From NCBI RefSeq assembly GCF_025548535.1, contig NZ_JAJLQW010000007.1, positions 124,001 to 188,000 of the forward strand: DNA of 64,000 bases, in the 5' to 3' direction. Shown here one piece after another: positions 44,097 to 52,939 of the stretch. Origin of the DNA: Undibacterium sp. Jales W-56 (GTDB lineage: Bacteria; Pseudomonadota; Gammaproteobacteria; Burkholderiales; Burkholderiaceae_D). Positions within the stretch are counted from its first letter, which is position 1. Each line of letters begins with the position of its first letter. A program made the translations under genes and the position numbers. The notes under the pieces are model-generated. The model was not told the origin of the DNA and searched no databases. It worked only from the letters and a program-made list of their open reading frames with translations.

Positions 44097-45209
44097 TTAT
44101 GCGATACCGCGCAGCATCAATCTTGATTGTAAGGATTCCGGCAATATCGCCGACAGCTTCGCCGTGATATGCGCCTCATGCTTGCTCCACCACAATCCCG
44201 CCGCGATCAGCGCGAAACCCAGCACCGTCAGCAAGGCCACGAAGACAAAACTGTCTTTGAACAAATGCCAGGACAAATCGCCCAGCACCATTGCCAGACC
44301 GATCCCACCAAACACTGCAAACACTCTGCGCGCCAGGATCGCACCGATGAAGATCAAGCCCGTATTGATCGCCAGATACATCAACTTGCCGGACAAGGCG
44401 CCATCGCCCATCGACGACAAGGCGCCCCAGAAGGTCAGCAAGCCAAACAGATACAGCCAGAATGCGTAATCGATACCGCGACGCGAGCGCAAATCCACAA
44501 TCAGCGCCAGCACCAGCATGCCCAGACCAAACACCAGGGAAATCTGCTGGCGCAGATGCCAGTTGCCGCTGATCAGGCCCGCATCGCCTTGCATTAGGAT
44601 CGCAGGCACCACGTCCATGCCCATGTAAAACAAGGTCACCGAGATCGGCATCACCAGAAAGCTATATTGAAAACGCCACAGCATCAGCGCACCGGCCAGC
44701 AAAGTCGCCAGTTCCATCGTCAACCAATGCCAGTCTATCCAGCGATGGAAATCGCGATAATGCCCGGTCGTCGCGCTATCGGCCCACCAGCCCAGCACAT
44801 GCTGGAGCGCGAATATCGCCAGCGGCACCAGCGCAATCGCCAGCGTCGCAAAGATCCCCGCCGGCGCGCCCAAGCCGCGCTTATCCAGCCAGCTCGCCAG
44901 CGCCACCGCAAACAACAGGTACACCAGGCTCAGATCCAGCAGCACAGGCATGCCCCACTTCTCGACCGCCAGGGTACTGAATAAGGAACACGCCGCAATC
45001 GCCAGCATGCCGCCCAGGTAATACAAGACCGTCGTGCCGCTAAATCGCGTCGGCGCGTTGCGCCCCGTCATGCCGCCGTGTCCGCTTCGGTAACCAGCTT
45101 TGCGCGCCCGCGCTTCCAAAAATTGCAGCAATGGATCCACCTGCCCATAGTGCAACAAGCCCAAGTCCGCCGCCTCCATCAAGGCTTCACGCTTACATAA
45201 TTTACCCAT
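44097..45209 (-). CDS. DUF2157-like multi-pass membrane protein
   Basis: 370 aa. A short soluble N-terminus (1-55; REALMEAADLGLLHYGQVDPLL) precedes about nine or ten hydrophobic helices to residue 350. The N-terminal arrangement is like DUF2157 proteins but the match is loose. Sixty bases after the DUF1223 start on the same strand, so not clearly in an operon with it. Function unknown. Confidence 0.7.
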   Translation of the reverse strand: MGKLCKREALMEAADLGLLHYGQVDPLLQFLEARARKAGYRSGHGGMTGRNAPTRFSGTTVLYYLGGMLAIAACSLFSTLAVEKWGMPVLLDLSLVYLLFAVALASWLDKRGLGAPAGIFATLAIALVPLAIFALQHVLGWWADSATTGHYRDFHRWIDWHWLTMELATLLAGALMLWRFQYSFLVMPISVTLFYMGMDVVPAILMQGDAGLISGNWHLRQQISLVFGLGMLVLALIVDLRSRRGIDYAFWLYLFGLLTFWGALSSMGDGALSGKLMYLAINTGLIFIGAILARRVFAVFGGIGLAMVLGDLSWHLFKDSFVFVALLTVLGFALIAAGLWWSKHEAHITAKLSAILPESLQSRLMLRGIA

Positions 45210-45315: not shown

Positions 45316-45504
45316 AGGTCGAGAATATTGATCTAAAAATAAGAAAACTCTGTGCACCTGTTTCTGCGCGACATCTTTTGCGCCAACCCGGCAGCAGTCA
45401 CCCGCGTCCAGCAATGCGAGATTTATGCTGGTCAGCACTGCGGTATCGAGGTGCGCTGCGGTAAAATGCTTGTCATCACATTATTTATTGAAATGATTGG
45501 CACC

Positions 45505-47301
45505 ATGAGCAACGACGCAAATACTAAAAAAACCGATACCAAATCTGAAGCAACTGCCAACACCCCTGCCCCAGTATCGAATTTCCTGCGCGGCATCATC
45601 GATCACGACCTCGCCGCCGGCATCTACACCCGCGACGGCATGCCCAATGTCATCACCCGCTTCCCGCCCGAGCCTAACGGCTACCTGCACATCGGCCACG
45701 CCAAATCGATCTGCCTGAACTTCGGTCTGGCACGCGATTACGCCGGTCGTTGCCATCTGCGCTTTGACGACACCAATCCGGAAAAGGAAGATCAGGAATA
45801 TGTCGACACCATCATCGACAGCGTCAAATGGCTGGGCTTCGATTGGAACGATAGCCCTGAACAAGGTGATGGTAGCCAACCCCGTAGCCATCTCTACTAC
45901 GCCAGTGATTATTTCGACACTTTCTACGCGATTGCCGAATACCTGATCAACGCCGGCCACGCCTACGTGGACAGCCAGTCGGCCGACGACATGGCCGCCA
46001 ATCGCGGCGACTTCTCCAAACCCGGCGTGAATTCGCCTTTCCGCGACCGCACAGCAGCCGAATCGCTGGATTTATTCCGCCGCATGAAAGCCGGCGAATT
46101 CCAGGGCGGCGAGCACATCCTGCGCGCCAAGATCGACATGGCATCGCCGAACATGAATATGCGCGACCCGGCGATCTACCGCATCCGTCACGCACATCAT
46201 CACCGTACCGGCGACAAATGGTGCATCTACCCGATGTACGACTACGCACATCCACTGGAAGACGCGATAGAAAACATCACGCACTCGATCTGCACCTTAG
46301 AGTTTCAGGATCACCGTCCGTTCTACGACTGGATCATCGCCCGCGCCACCGAAGGTGGTTTCTTCAAACAACCAGTACCGCGCCAATACGAATTCGCGCG
46401 TCTCAATCTGACCTATGTCGTCACCAGCAAACGCAAACTGCGCCAACTGGTAGAACAAAACATCGTCAGCGGTTGGGACGACCCGCGCATGCCCACCATC
46501 GTCGGCATCCGTCGTCGTGGCTACACGCCGGAATCCATCCAGCTTTTCTGCGAACGCATAGGCGTCACGCGCTCTGACGGCTGGATCGACTACAGCACGC
46601 TAGAAGGTTGCCTGCGCGAAGACCTCGACCCGAAAGCAGCACGCGCCACCGCGGTGCTGCGCCCGCTGAAACTCATCATCGACAATTTCCCGACGCTCGA
46701 TGGCATGAGTCAGATGATCACCTGCAGCGCACCAGTGCACCCGCACCAGCCGGAACGCGGCAACCGCGAATTCACCATCGGCAAAGAACTGTGGATAGAA
46801 CAGGAAGACTTCATGGAAGAACCCGTCAAAGGCTACTTCCGCCTGTTCCCTGGCAACAAGGTACGCCTGCGCTACGGCTACGTCGTTGAATGCACAGGCT
46901 GCGATAAAGATGAAAATGGTAACGTGATTGCCGTCCACTGCAACTACTTCGCCGACAGCAAATCCGGCACCGAAGGCAGCGCCAATTACAAGGTAAAAGG
47001 CAACATCCACTGGGTCAACGCCGCCGATGCCCTGGAAGCCGAAGTGCGCCTGTACGACCGCTTATTCACCGACGCGAACCCAGACGCCGGTGGCAAAGAC
47101 TTCATGGCTCTGCTGAATCCAAACGCATTAGAAATCGTCAAAGCTTATGTAGAACCGGGTATGAAAGACGTTGCGCCAGACACGCGTTTGCAGTTTGAAC
47201 GTCATGGGTATTTTGTGGCAGATCGCGTGGATTCTGTGAAGGGTAAACCGGTGTTTAATCGGGTTACTACTTTGAAGGATAGTTGGGGGAGTAGTTTTTA
47301 A
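45505..47301 (+). CDS. glnS: glutamine--tRNA ligase
   Basis: 598-aa class I synthetase. HIGH motif in PPEPNGYLHIGHAKS and KMSKS equivalent in VVTSKRKLRQL; the anticodon-binding beta-barrels follow (ELWIEQEDFMEEP, RLFPGNKVRLRYGYVV). The ATG at 45505 (MSNDANTKK) gives a 25-residue polar N-terminal tail; a 51-codon upstream extension contains no homology. Its end lies 81 bp before the first repeat of the retron RNA. Confidence 0.98.
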   Translation: MSNDANTKKTDTKSEATANTPAPVSNFLRGIIDHDLAAGIYTRDGMPNVITRFPPEPNGYLHIGHAKSICLNFGLARDYAGRCHLRFDDTNPEKEDQEYVDTIIDSVKWLGFDWNDSPEQGDGSQPRSHLYYASDYFDTFYAIAEYLINAGHAYVDSQSADDMAANRGDFSKPGVNSPFRDRTAAESLDLFRRMKAGEFQGGEHILRAKIDMASPNMNMRDPAIYRIRHAHHHRTGDKWCIYPMYDYAHPLEDAIENITHSICTLEFQDHRPFYDWIIARATEGGFFKQPVPRQYEFARLNLTYVVTSKRKLRQLVEQNIVSGWDDPRMPTIVGIRRRGYTPESIQLFCERIGVTRSDGWIDYSTLEGCLREDLDPKAARATAVLRPLKLIIDNFPTLDGMSQMITCSAPVHPHQPERGNREFTIGKELWIEQEDFMEEPVKGYFRLFPGNKVRLRYGYVVECTGCDKDENGNVIAVHCNYFADSKSGTEGSANYKVKGNIHWVNAADALEAEVRLYDRLFTDANPDAGGKDFMALLNPNALEIVKAYVEPGMKDVAPDTRLQFERHGYFVADRVDSVKGKPVFNRVTTLKDSWGSSF

Positions 47302-47369
47302 TTAAGCCTAGTATTATTGGGCGGTTACGTCCACCCTATGCACTTGCATTTACCTAGCGGCCTATATGC

Positions 47370-47375
47370 TATTAT
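47370..47375 (+). promoter_or_regulatory. possible -10 element for the retron RNA
   Basis: TATTAT placed 7 bp before the a1 repeat, so transcription would begin about 47382. Only a weak -35 candidate (TTTACC, 15-bp spacer) is seen, so this is tentative. Confidence 0.3.
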
Positions 47376-47382
47376 TCTTATT

Positions 47383-47510
47383 GGTTTATGGGCAGATTTT
47401 TGATTGCGCTTCGCAATCTGTGAAAAAAATGTCCGCAAGGATTGCCCTTTATAGAACATGGAAACATGTCTCTATATTCTCTTGACAATGCGTAAGAGTG
47501 CCCATAAACC
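47383..47510 (+). ncRNA. retron msr-msd RNA
   Basis: Structured RNA just upstream of the reverse transcriptase. A 12-nt a1 repeat (47383-47394) is perfectly complementary to the a2 repeat (47499-47510), the hallmark that closes retron RNAs. The base after a1 is G47395, the expected branch guanosine. msr hairpin GATTGCG-CTT-CGCAATC at 47402-47418. The msd part has a long hairpin TATAGA-ACATG / CATGT-TCTATA (47450-47476, GAAA loop, one bulge) and lower pairings of ATTG/CAAT and CGC/GCG (434-444 with 486-492 in the 47 kb numbering). The mature msDNA would be about 60-80 nt. The boundaries of msr and msd are inferred. Confidence 0.8.
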
Positions 47511-47533
47511 ACCACCAAAATAAGTGAGGTTTG

Positions 47534-49381
47534 ATGAGAAAACTGCAGACCTTGAGACAAATTTCTACCAAACCTGAACTTGCGAATTTGCTTGGAGTTA
47601 AACCTTCGATTCTTACATATGCCCTATATGTAACTAAGCCAGAAAAGCAATATATTCAATTCAAGATCCCAAAGAAAAGCGGCGGTGAAAGAATAATAAA
47701 TGCGCCTACTGGGAAGTTAAAAACAATCCAATCTGCGCTTTCAAATTTATTGCTCGATTGCCTAGATGAGATTAATCAAGAAAAATATCCAAAATCGGAA
47801 TTTTCTAAACAATCTGTCAAATACTCAAAAATACTCAAAGTAAGGTGTGGCGGCGCTCGGAGTAAGCAGCCTAGCCTATCGCATGGCTTTGAGAGACGTA
47901 GGTCAATTATCACCAATGCGTTGATGCATTTGGGGAAAAAAAACGTCTTAAACATCGATTTAGAAAATTTTTTCGGTAGCTTCAATTTTGGTAGAGTTCG
48001 AGGGTTTTTTATTAAAAATGAAAATTTCAAATTAGACCCAAAAATCTCAACTGTTATTGCCCAGATTGCTTGCTACAACAACGAACTTCCACAAGGTAGC
48101 CCTTGTTCACCGGTTATCACGAATTTGATAACTCATACATTGGACATTCGACTTGCATCTTTGGCAGAAATTCATTCCTGCACATATAGTCGGTATGCTG
48201 ACGATATTACATTTTCATCACGTGAAAAAATATTCCCAACAAAAATCATGCGTGAAGATAGTGGAAATTATGTCGTCGGGAAAAAATTACGCTCCGAAAT
48301 TTCAAGATCAGGCTTTTCTATTAATCACAAAAAAACCAGAATTCAATTTAAAGATTCCAGACAAGACGTTACCGGATTAATCGTAAATAATAAACCAAAT
48401 ACTAAAAGAGAATATTGGCGCACTGTAAGAGCTCAATGCAACAGCTTATTCAAGAACGGCTCATTTACAGTAAATTCTAACGGTAAAGTGAGTATAGGCA
48501 ATGTTAATCGGCTTGCAGGACAATTAAATTTTATCGATCAGCTAGATCATTACAATAGATTACGTCAAAAACCACCCTTAGACCCAAACTACCAATGGAA
48601 ACGAGATGCACTTGCTCACCAAAATAAAAATAAACAGAAAAAACATTTATTTAGTGGGCGCGAAAAAACCTATAGTGAATTTATTTTTTATCGCCTTTTT
48701 TATTCTGCAGACAAGCCGACAATTCTAACTGAAGGTAAAACCGATAACCTTTATTTAAAATCAGCAATTAACATACTTTCTGGGTACTATCCAAAACTAG
48801 CAAAAACCAAAACGGCAAAGACTCCATATGAATTATCTGTGCAGTTTCTCAACTATTCAGCACGAACCAAATTTCTTTTGGAGTTACATGGTGGGGCTGA
48901 CTATCTAAAGGATTTTATAAAAAATTATTCACATAATTTTGATCGGTATAAAGCTCTGACTAATCAACACCCTGTGATTATCGTTGTTGATAATGATGAT
49001 GGGCCAAAAGAACTTATCAATGCAGTTTCGAAAATGGGATCGGCAAAAATTTTCCCAACGTCGTTGACTATAAAAAGCGATATTAGAAAATCAGATTTTA
49101 TTCACGTTACTCACAACTTATACCTGGTAATGACGCCACTGTTAGCTGGAGAAACCAAAAGCGATATCGAAGCATTTTTTACTGATGCCGATAGATTAAA
49201 ACAACATAACGGCAAATGTTTCAACACCAAAAAAAACCGAAAAGACGAAATAAATTTGAGCAAAGATTCATTTGCAAATCACATTATTTCTGCACAAAAA
49301 ACTACAATTAATTTTGATGGTTTAAAACCGATACTCGATCGAATCACAATGGCAATTGAGCACCATAATTTGCCCAAATAA
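47534..49381 (+). CDS. retron reverse transcriptase fused to a TOPRIM domain
   Basis: 615 aa. RT part 1-345: fingers motif KKSGGERIINAP, retron X-region NALMH (NAxxH), motif A NIDLENFFGSF, motif B LPQGSPCSPVITN, catalytic YADD in YSRYADDITFS, and Y-region DVTGLIVN (VTG). These identify a retron RT rather than a group II intron or DGR RT. The C-terminal half (about 395-560) is a TOPRIM domain: LTEGKTD with the catalytic Glu, and IIVVDNDDG with the D-x-D pair. This RT-TOPRIM fusion is the arrangement of retron Ec67 (Retron-Eco2, type I-C), known as an anti-phage system. ATG at 47534 has GAGG four bases upstream. Strongly AT-rich, unlike glnS and pepD, so likely acquired. Confidence 0.93.
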   Translation: MRKLQTLRQISTKPELANLLGVKPSILTYALYVTKPEKQYIQFKIPKKSGGERIINAPTGKLKTIQSALSNLLLDCLDEINQEKYPKSEFSKQSVKYSKILKVRCGGARSKQPSLSHGFERRRSIITNALMHLGKKNVLNIDLENFFGSFNFGRVRGFFIKNENFKLDPKISTVIAQIACYNNELPQGSPCSPVITNLITHTLDIRLASLAEIHSCTYSRYADDITFSSREKIFPTKIMREDSGNYVVGKKLRSEISRSGFSINHKKTRIQFKDSRQDVTGLIVNNKPNTKREYWRTVRAQCNSLFKNGSFTVNSNGKVSIGNVNRLAGQLNFIDQLDHYNRLRQKPPLDPNYQWKRDALAHQNKNKQKKHLFSGREKTYSEFIFYRLFYSADKPTILTEGKTDNLYLKSAINILSGYYPKLAKTKTAKTPYELSVQFLNYSARTKFLLELHGGADYLKDFIKNYSHNFDRYKALTNQHPVIIVVDNDDGPKELINAVSKMGSAKIFPTSLTIKSDIRKSDFIHVTHNLYLVMTPLLAGETKSDIEAFFTDADRLKQHNGKCFNTKKNRKDEINLSKDSFANHIISAQKTTINFDGLKPILDRITMAIEHHNLPK

Positions 49382-49404
49382 AAATCATACGTAGCGTGCG
49401 TACG

Positions 49405-49838
49405 TCTGTAGCAAGCGTAGCGTGCGTGCCTCCGTAGGGTGTGCCATGCGCACCATTTCACCGGATATCTTCACTTTTTAATCTGTTCGTTTTCCCATCA
49501 TTGGTGCGCATGGCGCACCCTACGTCATATCTGTGTGGCTTGTGGCGTGTTTTGGTGCCGCGAGGCGCGTCTTTGTTGCGGCATGGTTTTTATGGATATT
49601 GACAGATCATCGTGTTCAAGGCGGCAAGCAAGCGTAGCGTGCTTACCTCGGTAGGGTGCGCCATGCGCACCGTTTCACCGGATATCCTCATTTTTTACGC
49701 TGTTCGTTTTTCCATCATTGGTGCGCATGGCGCACCCTACGCAATGTCTGTGCGGCTTGTGGCGTGTTTTGGTGCCACGAGGCGCGTCTTTGTTGCGGTA
49801 TGGTTTTTATGGATATTGACGGATCATCGTGTTCAAGG
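49405..49838. repeat. two tandem 217-bp units, each with a REP pair
   Basis: About 49405-49621 and 49622-49838 are direct repeats (217 bp apart, a few substitutions). Each unit contains a REP in one orientation and one in the other about 48 bp later: 49434-49454 and 49503-49523, then 49651-49671 and 49720-49740. The core GGTGCGC-CAT-GCGCACC is itself a palindrome; the flank is GTAGG/CCTAC. Shared tails include GGTGCC(A/G)CGAGGCGCGTC and GATCATCGTGTTCAAGGC. Confidence 0.88.
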
Positions 49839-49870
49839 CAGGCTGTGATTTTATTTCTCGCGCCTTTCTC

Positions 49871-50410
49871 ATGCCAAATTATCGACGTTCGAATATCGCT
49901 GGCGGCACGTATTTCTTTACCGTGAATAGTTTTCGGCGGCGACCGATTTTGACTGCCGAATCGCTGCGTCATGCTTTGCGTTTGGCGATACAAAAAACGC
50001 GCCTGACACATCCGTTTGAAATTGATGCATGGGTGTTGTTGCCGGATCATTTGCATTGCATCTGGACGCTGCCGCAGGATGATGCGAATTTTTCTGTGCG
50101 CTGGTCTATGATCAAACGCATGGTCTCGCAAGCTTGCGCGGCGGAATTTGGCGTGGGCGATTTGTCCGCTTCACGAACGCAAAGAAATGAATCGGGCATC
50201 TGGCAACGACGTTTCTGGGAACATCAAATCCGTGACGACAAGGACTTTGCACGGCATGTCGATTATATTCATTGGAACCCGGTAAAACATGGTCTGGTTG
50301 CGCGTGCGGGTGATTGGCCACATTCGACATTTCATCGATATGTGGCGCAACAGATGTTGCCGCAGGATTGGGGGATTGATGCCGATGTTGCCGGAGACTT
50401 TGGAGAGTAA
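49871..50410 (+). CDS. REP-associated tyrosine transposase (RAYT, Y1_Tnp)
   Basis: 179-aa HUH-superfamily transposase. The HUH motif is PDHLHCIW, the catalytic Tyr lies in HVDYIHWNPVKHGL, and MPNYRRSNIAGGTYFFTV is the typical RAYT start. Enzymes of this type bind and cut single-stranded REP sequences. It lies directly between the BIME units (49405-49838) and another REP (50431-50451), the usual RAYT-REP linkage. A longer frame from 49829 runs into the repeat and is not used. Confidence 0.93.
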   Translation: MPNYRRSNIAGGTYFFTVNSFRRRPILTAESLRHALRLAIQKTRLTHPFEIDAWVLLPDHLHCIWTLPQDDANFSVRWSMIKRMVSQACAAEFGVGDLSASRTQRNESGIWQRRFWEHQIRDDKDFARHVDYIHWNPVKHGLVARAGDWPHSTFHRYVAQQMLPQDWGIDADVAGDFGE

Positions 50411-50430
50411 CTATTTGCTGAGGATAGATT

Positions 50431-50451
50431 GGTGCGCATGGCGCACCCTAC
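50431..50451 (-). repeat. single REP element after the RAYT gene
   Basis: Same 21-bp core as the REPs at 49503 and 49720 (GGTGCGCATGGCGCACC plus CTAC), 20 bp after the RAYT stop and 14 bp from the end of the OsmC-YcaO gene. The RAYT gene is therefore flanked by REPs on both sides. Confidence 0.88.
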
Positions 50452-50464
50452 CTCTAATGATAAT

Positions 50465-52663
50465 TTATTGATCTCTTCCCTTAGCCCGCGCGGCGTGCAA
50501 TTTCTTGTAGCTATCAATCAGACGCTGATGGCGATCCAGTCCTTCCAGTTTCATGCTCGTCGGCGTTAAGCCGTAGAAGCGTACGCTGCCGTTGACTGAT
50601 CCGATCGCTGCATCCATACGCTCGTTGCCAAACATGCGGCGGAAATTGGTTTCGTAATCGTCCAGTTCCAGTTCATCGTCCAGCGTCACTTCGAGCACCA
50701 CATTCAGTGCCTGATAAAACAAGCCGCGTTCGACGCTGTTGTCGTTGTATTGCAGGAAGGCTTGCGTCAAATCCTGCGCATCGTCGAGTTGTTCTAAGGC
50801 GAGATGGATCAGCAGTTTTAATTCCAGCACGGTGAGTTGTCCCCAGACCGTGTTCTCGTCAAACTCGATACCGATTAATGTCGCGATGTCGCTGTAATCG
50901 TCGAGTTCGTTATTTTCTAAACGATCGAGCAGCGCTTCCAGCGCGTCATCATCGAGCTGATGCAGATTCAGAATATCGTTGCGGAACAATAAGGCTTTGT
51001 TGGTGTTATCCCAGATCAGATCTTCGACCGGGTAGACTTCTGAATAACCCGGCACCAGGATGCGGCAAGCGGTGGCGCCTAACTGGTCGTATACCGCCAT
51101 GTAGACTTCTTTGCCCATCTCGGCGAGGATGCCGAACAAGGTCGCGGCTTCGTCGGCATTCGAGTTTTCACCCTGACCGGAAAAATCCCATTCCACAAAT
51201 TCATAGTCGGATTTGGCGCTGAAAAAGCGCCATGATACGACGCCGCTGGAATCGATGAAGTGTTCGACAAAGTTATTCGGCTCAGTCACTGCCTGGCTGA
51301 CGAACGTCGGTTGCGGTAAATCATTCAGGCCTTCAAAACTGCGGCCTTGCAGCAATTCTGTCAGGCTGCGTTCCAACGCGACTTCAAAACTCGGATGCGC
51401 GCCGAACGAAGCGAACACGCCGCCGGTGCGCGGGTTCATCAGGGTCACGCACATGACCGGATATTGCCCGCCTAGCGAGGCGTCTTTTACCAGCACCGGA
51501 AAGCCTTGTTCTTCCAGGCCCTGAATGCCGGCCAAGATGCCGGGATATTTCGCCAGCACGTCTTGCGGCACATCGGGCAAGGCGATTTCGCCTTCGAGGA
51601 TTTCGCGCTTCACCGCGCGTTCAAAAATCTCAGACAGACATTGCACCTGCGCTTCGACCAGCGTATTACCGGCGCTCATGCCATTGCTGGCAAACAGGTT
51701 TTCGATCAGGTTCGATGGGAAATAGACGGTCTCGCCATCCGATTGGCGCACATACGGCAGCGAGCAGATGCCGCGCTCTGCGTTGCCAGAATTGGTGTCG
51801 ATCAGATGCGAACCACGCAGTTCTTTATCGGGGTTGTAAATTGCCAGGCTGTATGCATCCAGAATCTCTTTTGGCAGCGCATCTTTCTTACCCGGTTTAA
51901 ACCACTTTTCATTCGGATAATGCACAAAATCAGCATTGGCGATGTCTTCGCCCCAGAACGAACCGGCGTAAAAATGGTTGTTACTCAGGCGCTCAATGTA
52001 CTCGCCCAAGGCTGACGCCAAAGCGCTTTCTTTGGTCGCACCTTTGCCGTTGGTAAAGCACATCGGTGAATGCGCATCGCGGATATGCAATGACCACACA
52101 TTCGGAATGATATTGCGCCACGACGCAATTTCAATTTTGATGCCGAGGCCCGCTAGCAAGCCGGACATATTCGCGATGGTTTTTTCCAACGGTAAGTCTT
52201 TACCGAGGATGTAGGTGGCAGCATCCGCATCTGGATTTAGTGTCAGCAAAGCCTGCGCATCGGCATCGAGGCTCTCGACTTCTTCGATCACAAACTCAGG
52301 CCCCTCCTGCACGACTTTCTTTACCGTGCAGCGCTCAATCGAACGCAAAATGCCTTGGCGATCTTTATCAGAAATATCGGCGGGCAATTCCACCTGAATC
52401 TTAAAGATTTGCGCGTAGCGGTTTTCCGGATCGACGATATTGTTTTGCGAAAGGCGGATATTCTCGGTTGGAATATTGCGTGTATTGCAGTACAACTTCA
52501 CAAAATACGCTGCGCACAAGGCGGACGATGCCAGAAAATAATCGAAAGGTCCGGGTGCTGAGCCATCTCCCTTATAGCGGATAGGCTGATCAGCGATCAC
52601 CGTGAAATCATCGAACTTGGCTTCCAGACGAAGCTTATCGAGAAAATTGACCTTAATTTCCAT
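50465..52663 (-). CDS. OsmC domain/YcaO domain protein
   Basis: 732 aa. Residues 1-140 are OsmC-like (KFDDFTVIADQPIRYKGDGSAPGPFDYFLASSALCAAYFVKLYC), with the Cys of the second motif present. About 165-570 is a YcaO domain (NGKGATKESALASALGEYIERLS, the ATP-binding helix region, and LIENLFASNGMSAGNTLVEAQVQCLSEIFERAVK), and the C-terminal 590-730 is acidic and helical. No terminal PxPxP, so azoline-forming cyclodehydratase activity is unlikely. E. coli YcaO lacks the OsmC part. Start at 52663 (MEIKVNF) rather than 52717. Function of the fusion is not established; YcaO has been linked to S12 methylthiolation in E. coli. Confidence 0.92.
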   Translation of the reverse strand: MEIKVNFLDKLRLEAKFDDFTVIADQPIRYKGDGSAPGPFDYFLASSALCAAYFVKLYCNTRNIPTENIRLSQNNIVDPENRYAQIFKIQVELPADISDKDRQGILRSIERCTVKKVVQEGPEFVIEEVESLDADAQALLTLNPDADAATYILGKDLPLEKTIANMSGLLAGLGIKIEIASWRNIIPNVWSLHIRDAHSPMCFTNGKGATKESALASALGEYIERLSNNHFYAGSFWGEDIANADFVHYPNEKWFKPGKKDALPKEILDAYSLAIYNPDKELRGSHLIDTNSGNAERGICSLPYVRQSDGETVYFPSNLIENLFASNGMSAGNTLVEAQVQCLSEIFERAVKREILEGEIALPDVPQDVLAKYPGILAGIQGLEEQGFPVLVKDASLGGQYPVMCVTLMNPRTGGVFASFGAHPSFEVALERSLTELLQGRSFEGLNDLPQPTFVSQAVTEPNNFVEHFIDSSGVVSWRFFSAKSDYEFVEWDFSGQGENSNADEAATLFGILAEMGKEVYMAVYDQLGATACRILVPGYSEVYPVEDLIWDNTNKALLFRNDILNLHQLDDDALEALLDRLENNELDDYSDIATLIGIEFDENTVWGQLTVLELKLLIHLALEQLDDAQDLTQAFLQYNDNSVERGLFYQALNVVLEVTLDDELELDDYETNFRRMFGNERMDAAIGSVNGSVRFYGLTPTSMKLEGLDRHQRLIDSYKKLHAARAKGRDQ

Positions 52664-52939
52664 GAGAGTGTTCCAAAAAAACGGCCAAAAGCGCGTTGAA
52701 AGTAAATTAGCCGCCATTATCCGTTCTTTTAGTCGTACAGGATAGGCGGCAGCACAAATCCACTCGCCCGCTTCGTCACGCTGAGCGCATTCGGCATAGC
52801 GGATACGTCGCCTGATTCTGTCAACGACTCAACATCTGAGAAATGCAGGGAACGATTCCCGGATAACGGTATGATAAACTTGCCGCCCTCTGCCCGCACC
52901 GCGTTATCCATGCAATACGGGTCTTACAGGATACTTATC

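Follow-up and report, generated by a model that had tools for sequence, protein, structure and literature searches.

Retron Ec67 (Retron-Eco2; PDB 9lm3, 9i2f and 9s1f; PMC12405507) encodes a fusion of a reverse transcriptase (RT) with a TOPRIM domain, has no separate effector and carries one msr stem-loop and one msd hairpin in its non-coding RNA (ncRNA). According to that report, which is our source for all statements below about Eco2 residues and working, reverse copying of the Eco2 RNA stops at rG52 after A-A-U, the resulting DNA starts with dT, the msd is 67 nucleotides (nt) long, and the isolated TOPRIM part degrades RNA. Here we describe a locus of the same plan in Undibacterium sp. Jales W-56, at positions 47382 to 49381 of a 64,000-nt stretch of contig NZ_JAJLQW010000007.1 (hereafter, the window). 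The gene, its motifs, most of its catalytic residues, a covarying ncRNA, the family membership and the genomic setting are established here; taking these together with the comparison to Eco2, we consider it very likely that the locus is a complete and probably functional Ec67/Eco2 (type I-C) retron that was gained horizontally, lies in a variable slot behind glnS and works in an Eco2-like manner.

The fusion protein and its ncRNA

The gene (47534..49381, + strand) encodes 615 residues and ends with a stop codon at 49381; the open reading frame list starts it at a TTG (47531), and we adopted the ATG at 47534. Judged by family-model, profile and fold matches, the product is a member of the retron Ec67 (Eco2) family, that is, a protein of a known kind. 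It matches NCBIfam NF038237 at 761.4 bits (cut-off of 450; model positions 1-571 of 572), the PADLOC RT-Toprim_I-C model with an E value of 2.9e-225 (the strongest family match has an E value of 5.5e-229) and the solved Retron Ec67 chains with an E value of 1.4e-133, at 39-41% identity; the label 'type I-C' follows PADLOC model naming. An earlier, sequence-only reading of this DNA had named an Ec67 plan from retron RT motifs and C-terminal TOPRIM motifs, and both sets are present: NALMH at residues 128-132, the catalytic YADD at 221-224 (48194..48205, + strand, from alignment and relatives) and VTG at 279-281, followed by EGKTD at 400-404, DNDD at 486-489 and E546 within a TOPRIM domain that spans about residues 396-615 (48719..49378, + strand; alignment to Eco2, motifs and predicted model). 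Among 120 close relatives (this protein included, the best 120 of 6211 scored), N128, H132, Y221, D223, D224 and VTG are invariant, as are the TOPRIM residues E400, D404, D486, D488 and E546, while A129 is kept in 117 and A222 in 119. Pfam RVT_1 matches the RT core, as its sole match in the host genome, and Pfam names no TOPRIM family in the C-terminal part of the protein. That part does align through the solved TOPRIM domain of Eco2, and the predicted model of the whole protein matches the Eco2 fold across residues 1-615, with the C-terminal part covered by Eco2 rows only (the absence of other TOPRIM families from that fold listing is uninformative). Modelled alone from two sequences, the TOPRIM domain reached a mean predicted local distance difference test (pLDDT) score of 35.8, too poor for a fold search.

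As the RT core (Pfam RVT_1) is common to other reverse transcriptases, the enzyme could in principle belong to a group II intron, a diversity-generating retroelement (DGR) or a defence-associated reverse transcriptase (DRT) system. Against the 761 bits of the Ec67 fusion model, however, the group II intron model scores 49 bits and the Drt2 model 37, and the fold ranking also speaks against both; we give a non-retron identity virtually no credence, and the grouping with group II intron or DGR enzymes that the sequence-only reading had named as its counter-case did not appear, nor did its second counter-case, a C-terminus lacking any TOPRIM match. In an RT tree of 55 rows (built from 42 of the 120 relatives above and 12 of 14 loci, with the partial frames of L003 and L042 entered as pieces), the protein joins P0002 at 100/99 and lies in a set of nine I-C rows, including Rheinheimera pacifica, at 97/96. 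Seven of the more distant loci group apart from these (100/99), several of them on long, program-flagged branches; the tree has one outgroup on a very long branch, several I-C rows are also on long branches, and Ec67 itself is not among the rows. PADLOC family scores agree with the I-C placement.

Upstream of the gene lies what is, on the basis of base pairing and its covariation, a whole retron ncRNA (a1/a2 repeat, branch guanosine, msr stem-loop and msd hairpin), with msd borders assigned by homology only. The a1 arm, TGGTTTATGGGCA (47382..47394), forms a perfect 13-nt inverted repeat with the a2 arm (47499..47511); the start proposed earlier for the locus, 47383, falls inside this a1 arm, which begins at 47382. 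The predicted branch guanosine (47395), an invariant column across 13 loci and by homology the counterpart of Eco2 rG15 (PMC12405507), is followed by ATTT, matching Eco2 rA16-rU19 after rG15. The msr stem-loop (47402..47418; predicted fold and covariation) precedes a predicted 67-nt msd template (47431..47497) whose borders follow from PMC12405507 and the sequence: AAT-G at 47428-47431 corresponds to Eco2 rA49-rA50-rU51-rG52, A47497 is consistent with dT at the DNA 5' end, and G47498 is a single base between the msd and the a2 arm. The hairpin of the future multicopy single-stranded DNA (msDNA), at 47450..47476, is predicted to have 11 pairs and one bulge; all of these elements are on the + strand. 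None of 200 shuffles was as stable as the fold of 47375-47533 (z of -4.7), and the same layout is seen upstream of 14 other RT-TOPRIM genes.

The helices are further supported by an alignment of 13 of these 15 loci (L041, a near-duplicate of L040, and L033, in which the repeat was missed by the script and is otherwise visible, were excluded), from which RNAalifold recovers the a1/a2 helix and the msr stem unprompted. In the a1/a2 helix (11 pairs), 100% of cells are paired and nine pairs have changed on both sides; in the msr stem, 97.8% of cells are paired and six of seven pairs have changed on both sides. Taken together, the two helices (18 pairs) have 99.1% of their cells paired and 15 pairs changed on both sides, values reached in 0 of 500 shuffles, whereas sliding the partners by 1-3 columns leaves only 32-44% of cells paired. 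Given this covariation and the strength of the family matches, chance can be dismissed as an explanation of the locus. Across 46900-50500, Rfam matched no retron family; three weak matches (E values of 0.2-0.66) were to microRNA models on REP (repetitive extragenic palindromic) sequences and were dismissed.

Comparison with Eco2 and proposed working

By analogy with Eco2, the most likely function of this locus is that of an msDNA-gated TOPRIM RNase, and it is from Eco2 that we infer msDNA synthesis, autoinhibition, the trigger and RNase activity. In such a scheme, the ncRNA (47382-47511) would fold through the a1/a2 helix, and the RT would prime from the 2'-OH of G47395 and copy about 67 nt, from 47497 back to 47431, to give branched msDNA. 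Protein and msDNA would then form an inactive complex in which the TOPRIM RNase is kept off. Damage to the msDNA, caused by a phage nuclease (in Eco2, DenB) or another activity of this sort, would release the TOPRIM domain, leading to RNA cleavage and a halt of the infection. Beyond the shared fusion, the lack of a separate effector, the single msr stem-loop and the single msd hairpin, the locus has in common with Eco2 the 67-nt msd (by homology), YADD and the TOPRIM E/D/DxD/E residues. Mapping the residues named in PMC12405507 onto the protein through the alignment to the solved Ec67 chains, we found F46, R56, K66, R184, Y199, D201, D202, K245, R247 and S253 (Eco2 numbering) to be identical here, together with E374, D378, K383, D460, D462 and E515.

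Several observations weigh against this reading. Thirteen named Eco2 residues are replaced here (R70 by S, T249 by Q, R264 by N, H281 by N, Q329 by D, D331 by N, R332 by Y, Y333 by Q, H387 by N, K418 by R, S513 by D, R555 by S and K557 by Q), and these include positions at which substitution of the Eco2 residue abolished defence (PMC12405507), namely R332 of the trimer loop (R332A) and S513, a ligand of metal B. The catalytic K562 of Eco2 is unmappable in this protein, the chain position aligning as D (a lysine close by, K589, is present in 116 of the 120 relatives). The predicted model has a predicted template modelling score (pTM) of 0.58 and a root-mean-square deviation of 5.5 to Eco2, such that the domain arrangement is uncertain; two of the six PADLOC I-C models (286 bits) fall below the best type XI and XII models. 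On the RNA side, the number of further pair types, one of the five measures of covariation, was the same as in shuffles (25 against 25.0). No promoter-like site was seen directly in front of the ncRNA on the + strand, and such sites are not more frequent than expected by chance. The assignment of DenB as the trigger in Eco2 is itself based on escaper mutants (PMC12405507).

These departures could be taken to indicate that the locus belongs to the same family and is decayed or idle, having lost msDNA production or its trigger in this host, a reading also favoured by the lack of a clear promoter and by the fact that its own genome is the sole carrier among 41 searched. We nevertheless regard decay as very unlikely: the frame is open, no YADD or TOPRIM E/D/DxD/E residue is lost, the a1 and a2 arms match perfectly and the msr stem is intact. 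Moreover, at 8 of the 13 replaced positions the residue found here is also the most frequent one among the 120 relatives, and the differences are therefore not private damage. The place of R332 is occupied by Y353, with Tyr in 116 of 120 relatives (the loop alignment is uncertain, with a pLDDT below 50 at 344-366), that of S513 by D544, with Asp in 117 of 120, and that of H281, which in Eco2 stacks on the msr (PMC12405507), by Asn in 72 and His in 23 relatives.

The relatives also depart from Ec67 in the length of one segment, which, like the differing contact residues, goes beyond what the sequence-only reading had described. In the fingers region, a segment of 33 residues (81-113; 47774..47872, + strand; from the alignment, mostly at low model confidence, with a pLDDT below 50 at residues 88-91 and 93-126) stands in the place of 8 residues in Ec67, and is thus about 25 residues longer. 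It comprises at least 26 residues in 114 of the 120 relatives and at most 18 in the other 6, and 7-9 residues in nine more distant loci. The long segment is therefore usual nearby without marking a clean clade, given these six and two loci in which it is short, L003 (12 residues) and L031 (13 residues), both of which the tree places with the close relatives. The Shewanella baltica plasmid copy (L037) and Rheinheimera pacifica (L002) encode proteins that are 65-66% identical to this one from a plasmid or another chromosome, share the long segment (37 and 33 residues, respectively) and the Tyr at the R332 place, and have a very similar ncRNA: GGTTTATGGGCAGATTTT ... GAGTGCCCATAAACC. With R332 and H281 replaced, the trimer loop altered and one segment longer, the assembly is probably not an exact copy of the Eco2 trimer, for which the trimer loop alone is in any case insufficient (PMC12405507).

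With a metal ligand changed from S to D, a different substrate is conceivable. The TOPRIM domain might act on DNA, as in OLD- or Gabija-type TOPRIM nucleases (OLD TOPRIM nucleases cut DNA; PMC10568477), or the system might respond to a trigger other than DenB, and the metal-B position (D544, Asp in nearly all relatives) and the differing trimer-loop and msr-loop contacts would fit such a change. Given that the remaining metal ligands match those of Eco2, whose isolated TOPRIM part degrades RNA, we see in this a real but minor possibility. The retron is a betaproteobacterial addition to a well-studied defence family; as it comes from a set of relatives in which Eco2-essential residues are replaced, it could help to show how much of the Eco2 model holds generally.

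Distribution and origin

Horizontal gain is the natural reading of the distribution and composition of the retron, given that its own genome alone among 41 carries it, that its base composition is deviant and that its best named relatives come from other genera. At a threshold of E 1e-60, RT-TOPRIM was found in 1 of 41 surrounding genomes (its own; 24 of them are other Undibacterium), in 2 of the 369 genomes from its class and in 7 of the 398 from its phylum (own genome counted in both), and in 1 of 78 genomes in the order of G501. The locus had been described earlier as AT-rich and unlike its neighbours in a betaproteobacterial background, and both points are borne out: the G+C content of 47383-49381 is 35.6% as opposed to 52.2% for the whole window, equal to the lowest 1999-nt stretch sampled every 100 nt, and the nearest named relatives of the host glnS are from Undibacterium. 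The best named relatives of the protein, among the best 120 of 6211 scored, are from Thalassomonas, Colwellia, Aeromonas and similar genera, which we take to be gammaproteobacteria. Some relatives are plasmid-borne, in Shewanella on a conjugative plasmid and in Proteus and Providencia on small ones. A scan of viral contigs gave one pattern match and no relative; among 50,697 phage records, 44 had a match, all below 60% identity and a single one of them spanning 80% or more of the protein. No transfer RNA or transfer-messenger RNA was found within the 64-kb window. In a Methylophilaceae metagenome-assembled genome (L003:3000-4749), a copy of the retron RT is split into frames, through either sequencing error or decay.

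The slot behind glnS

Judged by homology breakpoints, the stretch behind glnS in Undibacterium is a variable slot that holds unrelated cargo between conserved borders. Here the slot extends from the 3' end of glnS to a REP/RAYT block (47291..49409, no strand assigned; the right edge is approximate, falling between 49374 and 49410 in the clearest alignments), RAYT standing for REP-associated tyrosine transposase; glnS itself (45352..47301, + strand; from the open reading frame and relatives) forms the left edge and is not part of the retron. In 18 sampled congeners (from 26 genomes with a glnS match, own included; 9 kb behind glnS each, three with 8.5-8.8 kb), nucleotide homology stops at the last glnS codons (47280-47302) in every locus, and none has a match inside 47300-49360. 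The first same-strand match of at least 40 nt past the cargo is the REP/RAYT block in eight loci and a peptidase gene in four, and is absent from the stretch in six. In five of the eight (L043, L044, L045, L052 and L053), a cargo gene has its stop codon no more than 30 nt from the right edge. L044 provides the clearest comparison: glnS and the REP-RAYT-YcaO-peptidase run are about 88% identical in nucleotide sequence, and a single 359-residue gene with no Pfam or PADLOC match replaces the retron. At the junction itself, glnS ends by eye in SWGSSF-stop here (47285-47301) and in Lys-stop in the 18 congener junctions.

Using loci with enough flank (22 of 25 for glnS, 28 of 30 for prfC and 28 of 29 for alaS), we found content in common within 1.4 kb behind glnS in 3 of 231 genome pairs, compared with 86 of 378 pairs for prfC and 342 of 378 for alaS. 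Some results count against a sharply bounded, defence-specific slot. The REP/RAYT block is not the first match past the cargo in 10 of the 18 loci, and the gene 5' of glnS (44097-45209) was recognized in only 3 of 24 congener loci (L007-L030), which offer only a few hundred bases of flank; the glnS neighbourhood may be variable on both sides. Variability alone need not mean defence, as the stretch behind prfC is also variable and none of 10 genes there has a PADLOC match.

At a core defence hotspot, interchangeable defence genes occupy a fixed address beside core genes. The slot would fall in the same class of site as the core defence hotspots of Pseudomonas aeruginosa (PMC10250203) and the defence islands of E. 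coli (PMC10121019), with the difference that the address here is glnS in Undibacterium and that the right edge is REP/RAYT in 8 of 18 loci. Among the open-licence papers listed in literature searches, none dealt with a slot at glnS or with defence islands of Undibacterium, a weak statement in itself.

The variable slot, with its defence-type cargo in the congeners, is the other point on which the present analysis goes beyond the sequence-only reading. A scan of 26 cargo genes from all 18 loci (L043-L060) gave PADLOC defence matches in seven, one of them indirect: SIR2 genes in L043 and L051 (candidate model PDC-S25), a Schlafen/AlbA protein beside a ParA-like ATPase in L045 (the indirect case, matched by Argonaute-system models), PD-Lambda-1 in L046, NsnA with a HEPN neighbour in L047, an NDT-like effector with an RT in L050 (6244-8110, - strand; a predicted type II-A retron gene pair, followed by a zeta-toxin-like kinase) and candidate PDC-S15 in L058. 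Other cargo is unrecognized or looks unrelated to defence (TonB-like genes in L048 and L049, a DUF3617 gene in L057 and an amine oxidase-lipoxygenase in L054); a PADLOC desaturase match in L054 was left out of the defence count. The control behind prfC, for which one frame was taken from each of the first 10 of 18 genomes with one (in most cases the largest, with some frames truncated at the end of the flank), gave no PADLOC match in 10 genes. The comparison of 7 of 18 with 0 of 10 (Fisher two-sided P of 0.03, or 0.06 without L045) uses a small, single-address control with some cut frames; an enrichment of defence genes in the slot is therefore likely and not established. The genes of L044 (7224-8303, - strand; 359 residues), L052 (598-2250, + strand; 550 residues) and L053 (7059-8150, - strand; 363 residues), with neither a PADLOC match nor a Pfam match above the cut-off, are candidates for unknown defence genes. 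We consider the slot the weightier finding, as a practical place to seek new anti-phage systems, these three genes being examples.

The right border comprises two 213-nt direct repeats that are 92% alike and contain REP palindromes (49410..49839, no strand assigned; repeat search), followed by a 193-residue RAYT-like gene outside the retron (49829..50410, + strand). The earlier placement of the locus between glnS and a RAYT cluster stood as to location; in place of a cluster there is one RAYT-like gene, surrounded by the two repeats and by five REP palindromes. When up to one mismatch is allowed, the genome has 21 REP hits, of which those five lie at 49434-50451, making 49410-50452 a cluster of such palindromes. 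The gene matches Pfam Y1_Tnp at 19.7 bits, below the cut-off of 23, and its name follows the earlier reading. Because the block borders the slot in 8 of 18 loci, one could envision the slot as a dedicated docking site for small defence cassettes, with REP or the RAYT nuclease helping to swap them. We regard this as unlikely, and among the open-licence papers listed none pairs RAYT with a defence hotspot in its title or the start of its abstract; if true, a domesticated transposase would help to turn over the immune repertoire, and the retron would be the cassette now docked here. The REP/RAYT border offers a testable idea on how defence genes are exchanged. Further to the right of the RAYT-like gene lies an OsmC-YcaO fusion gene (50465-52717, - strand).
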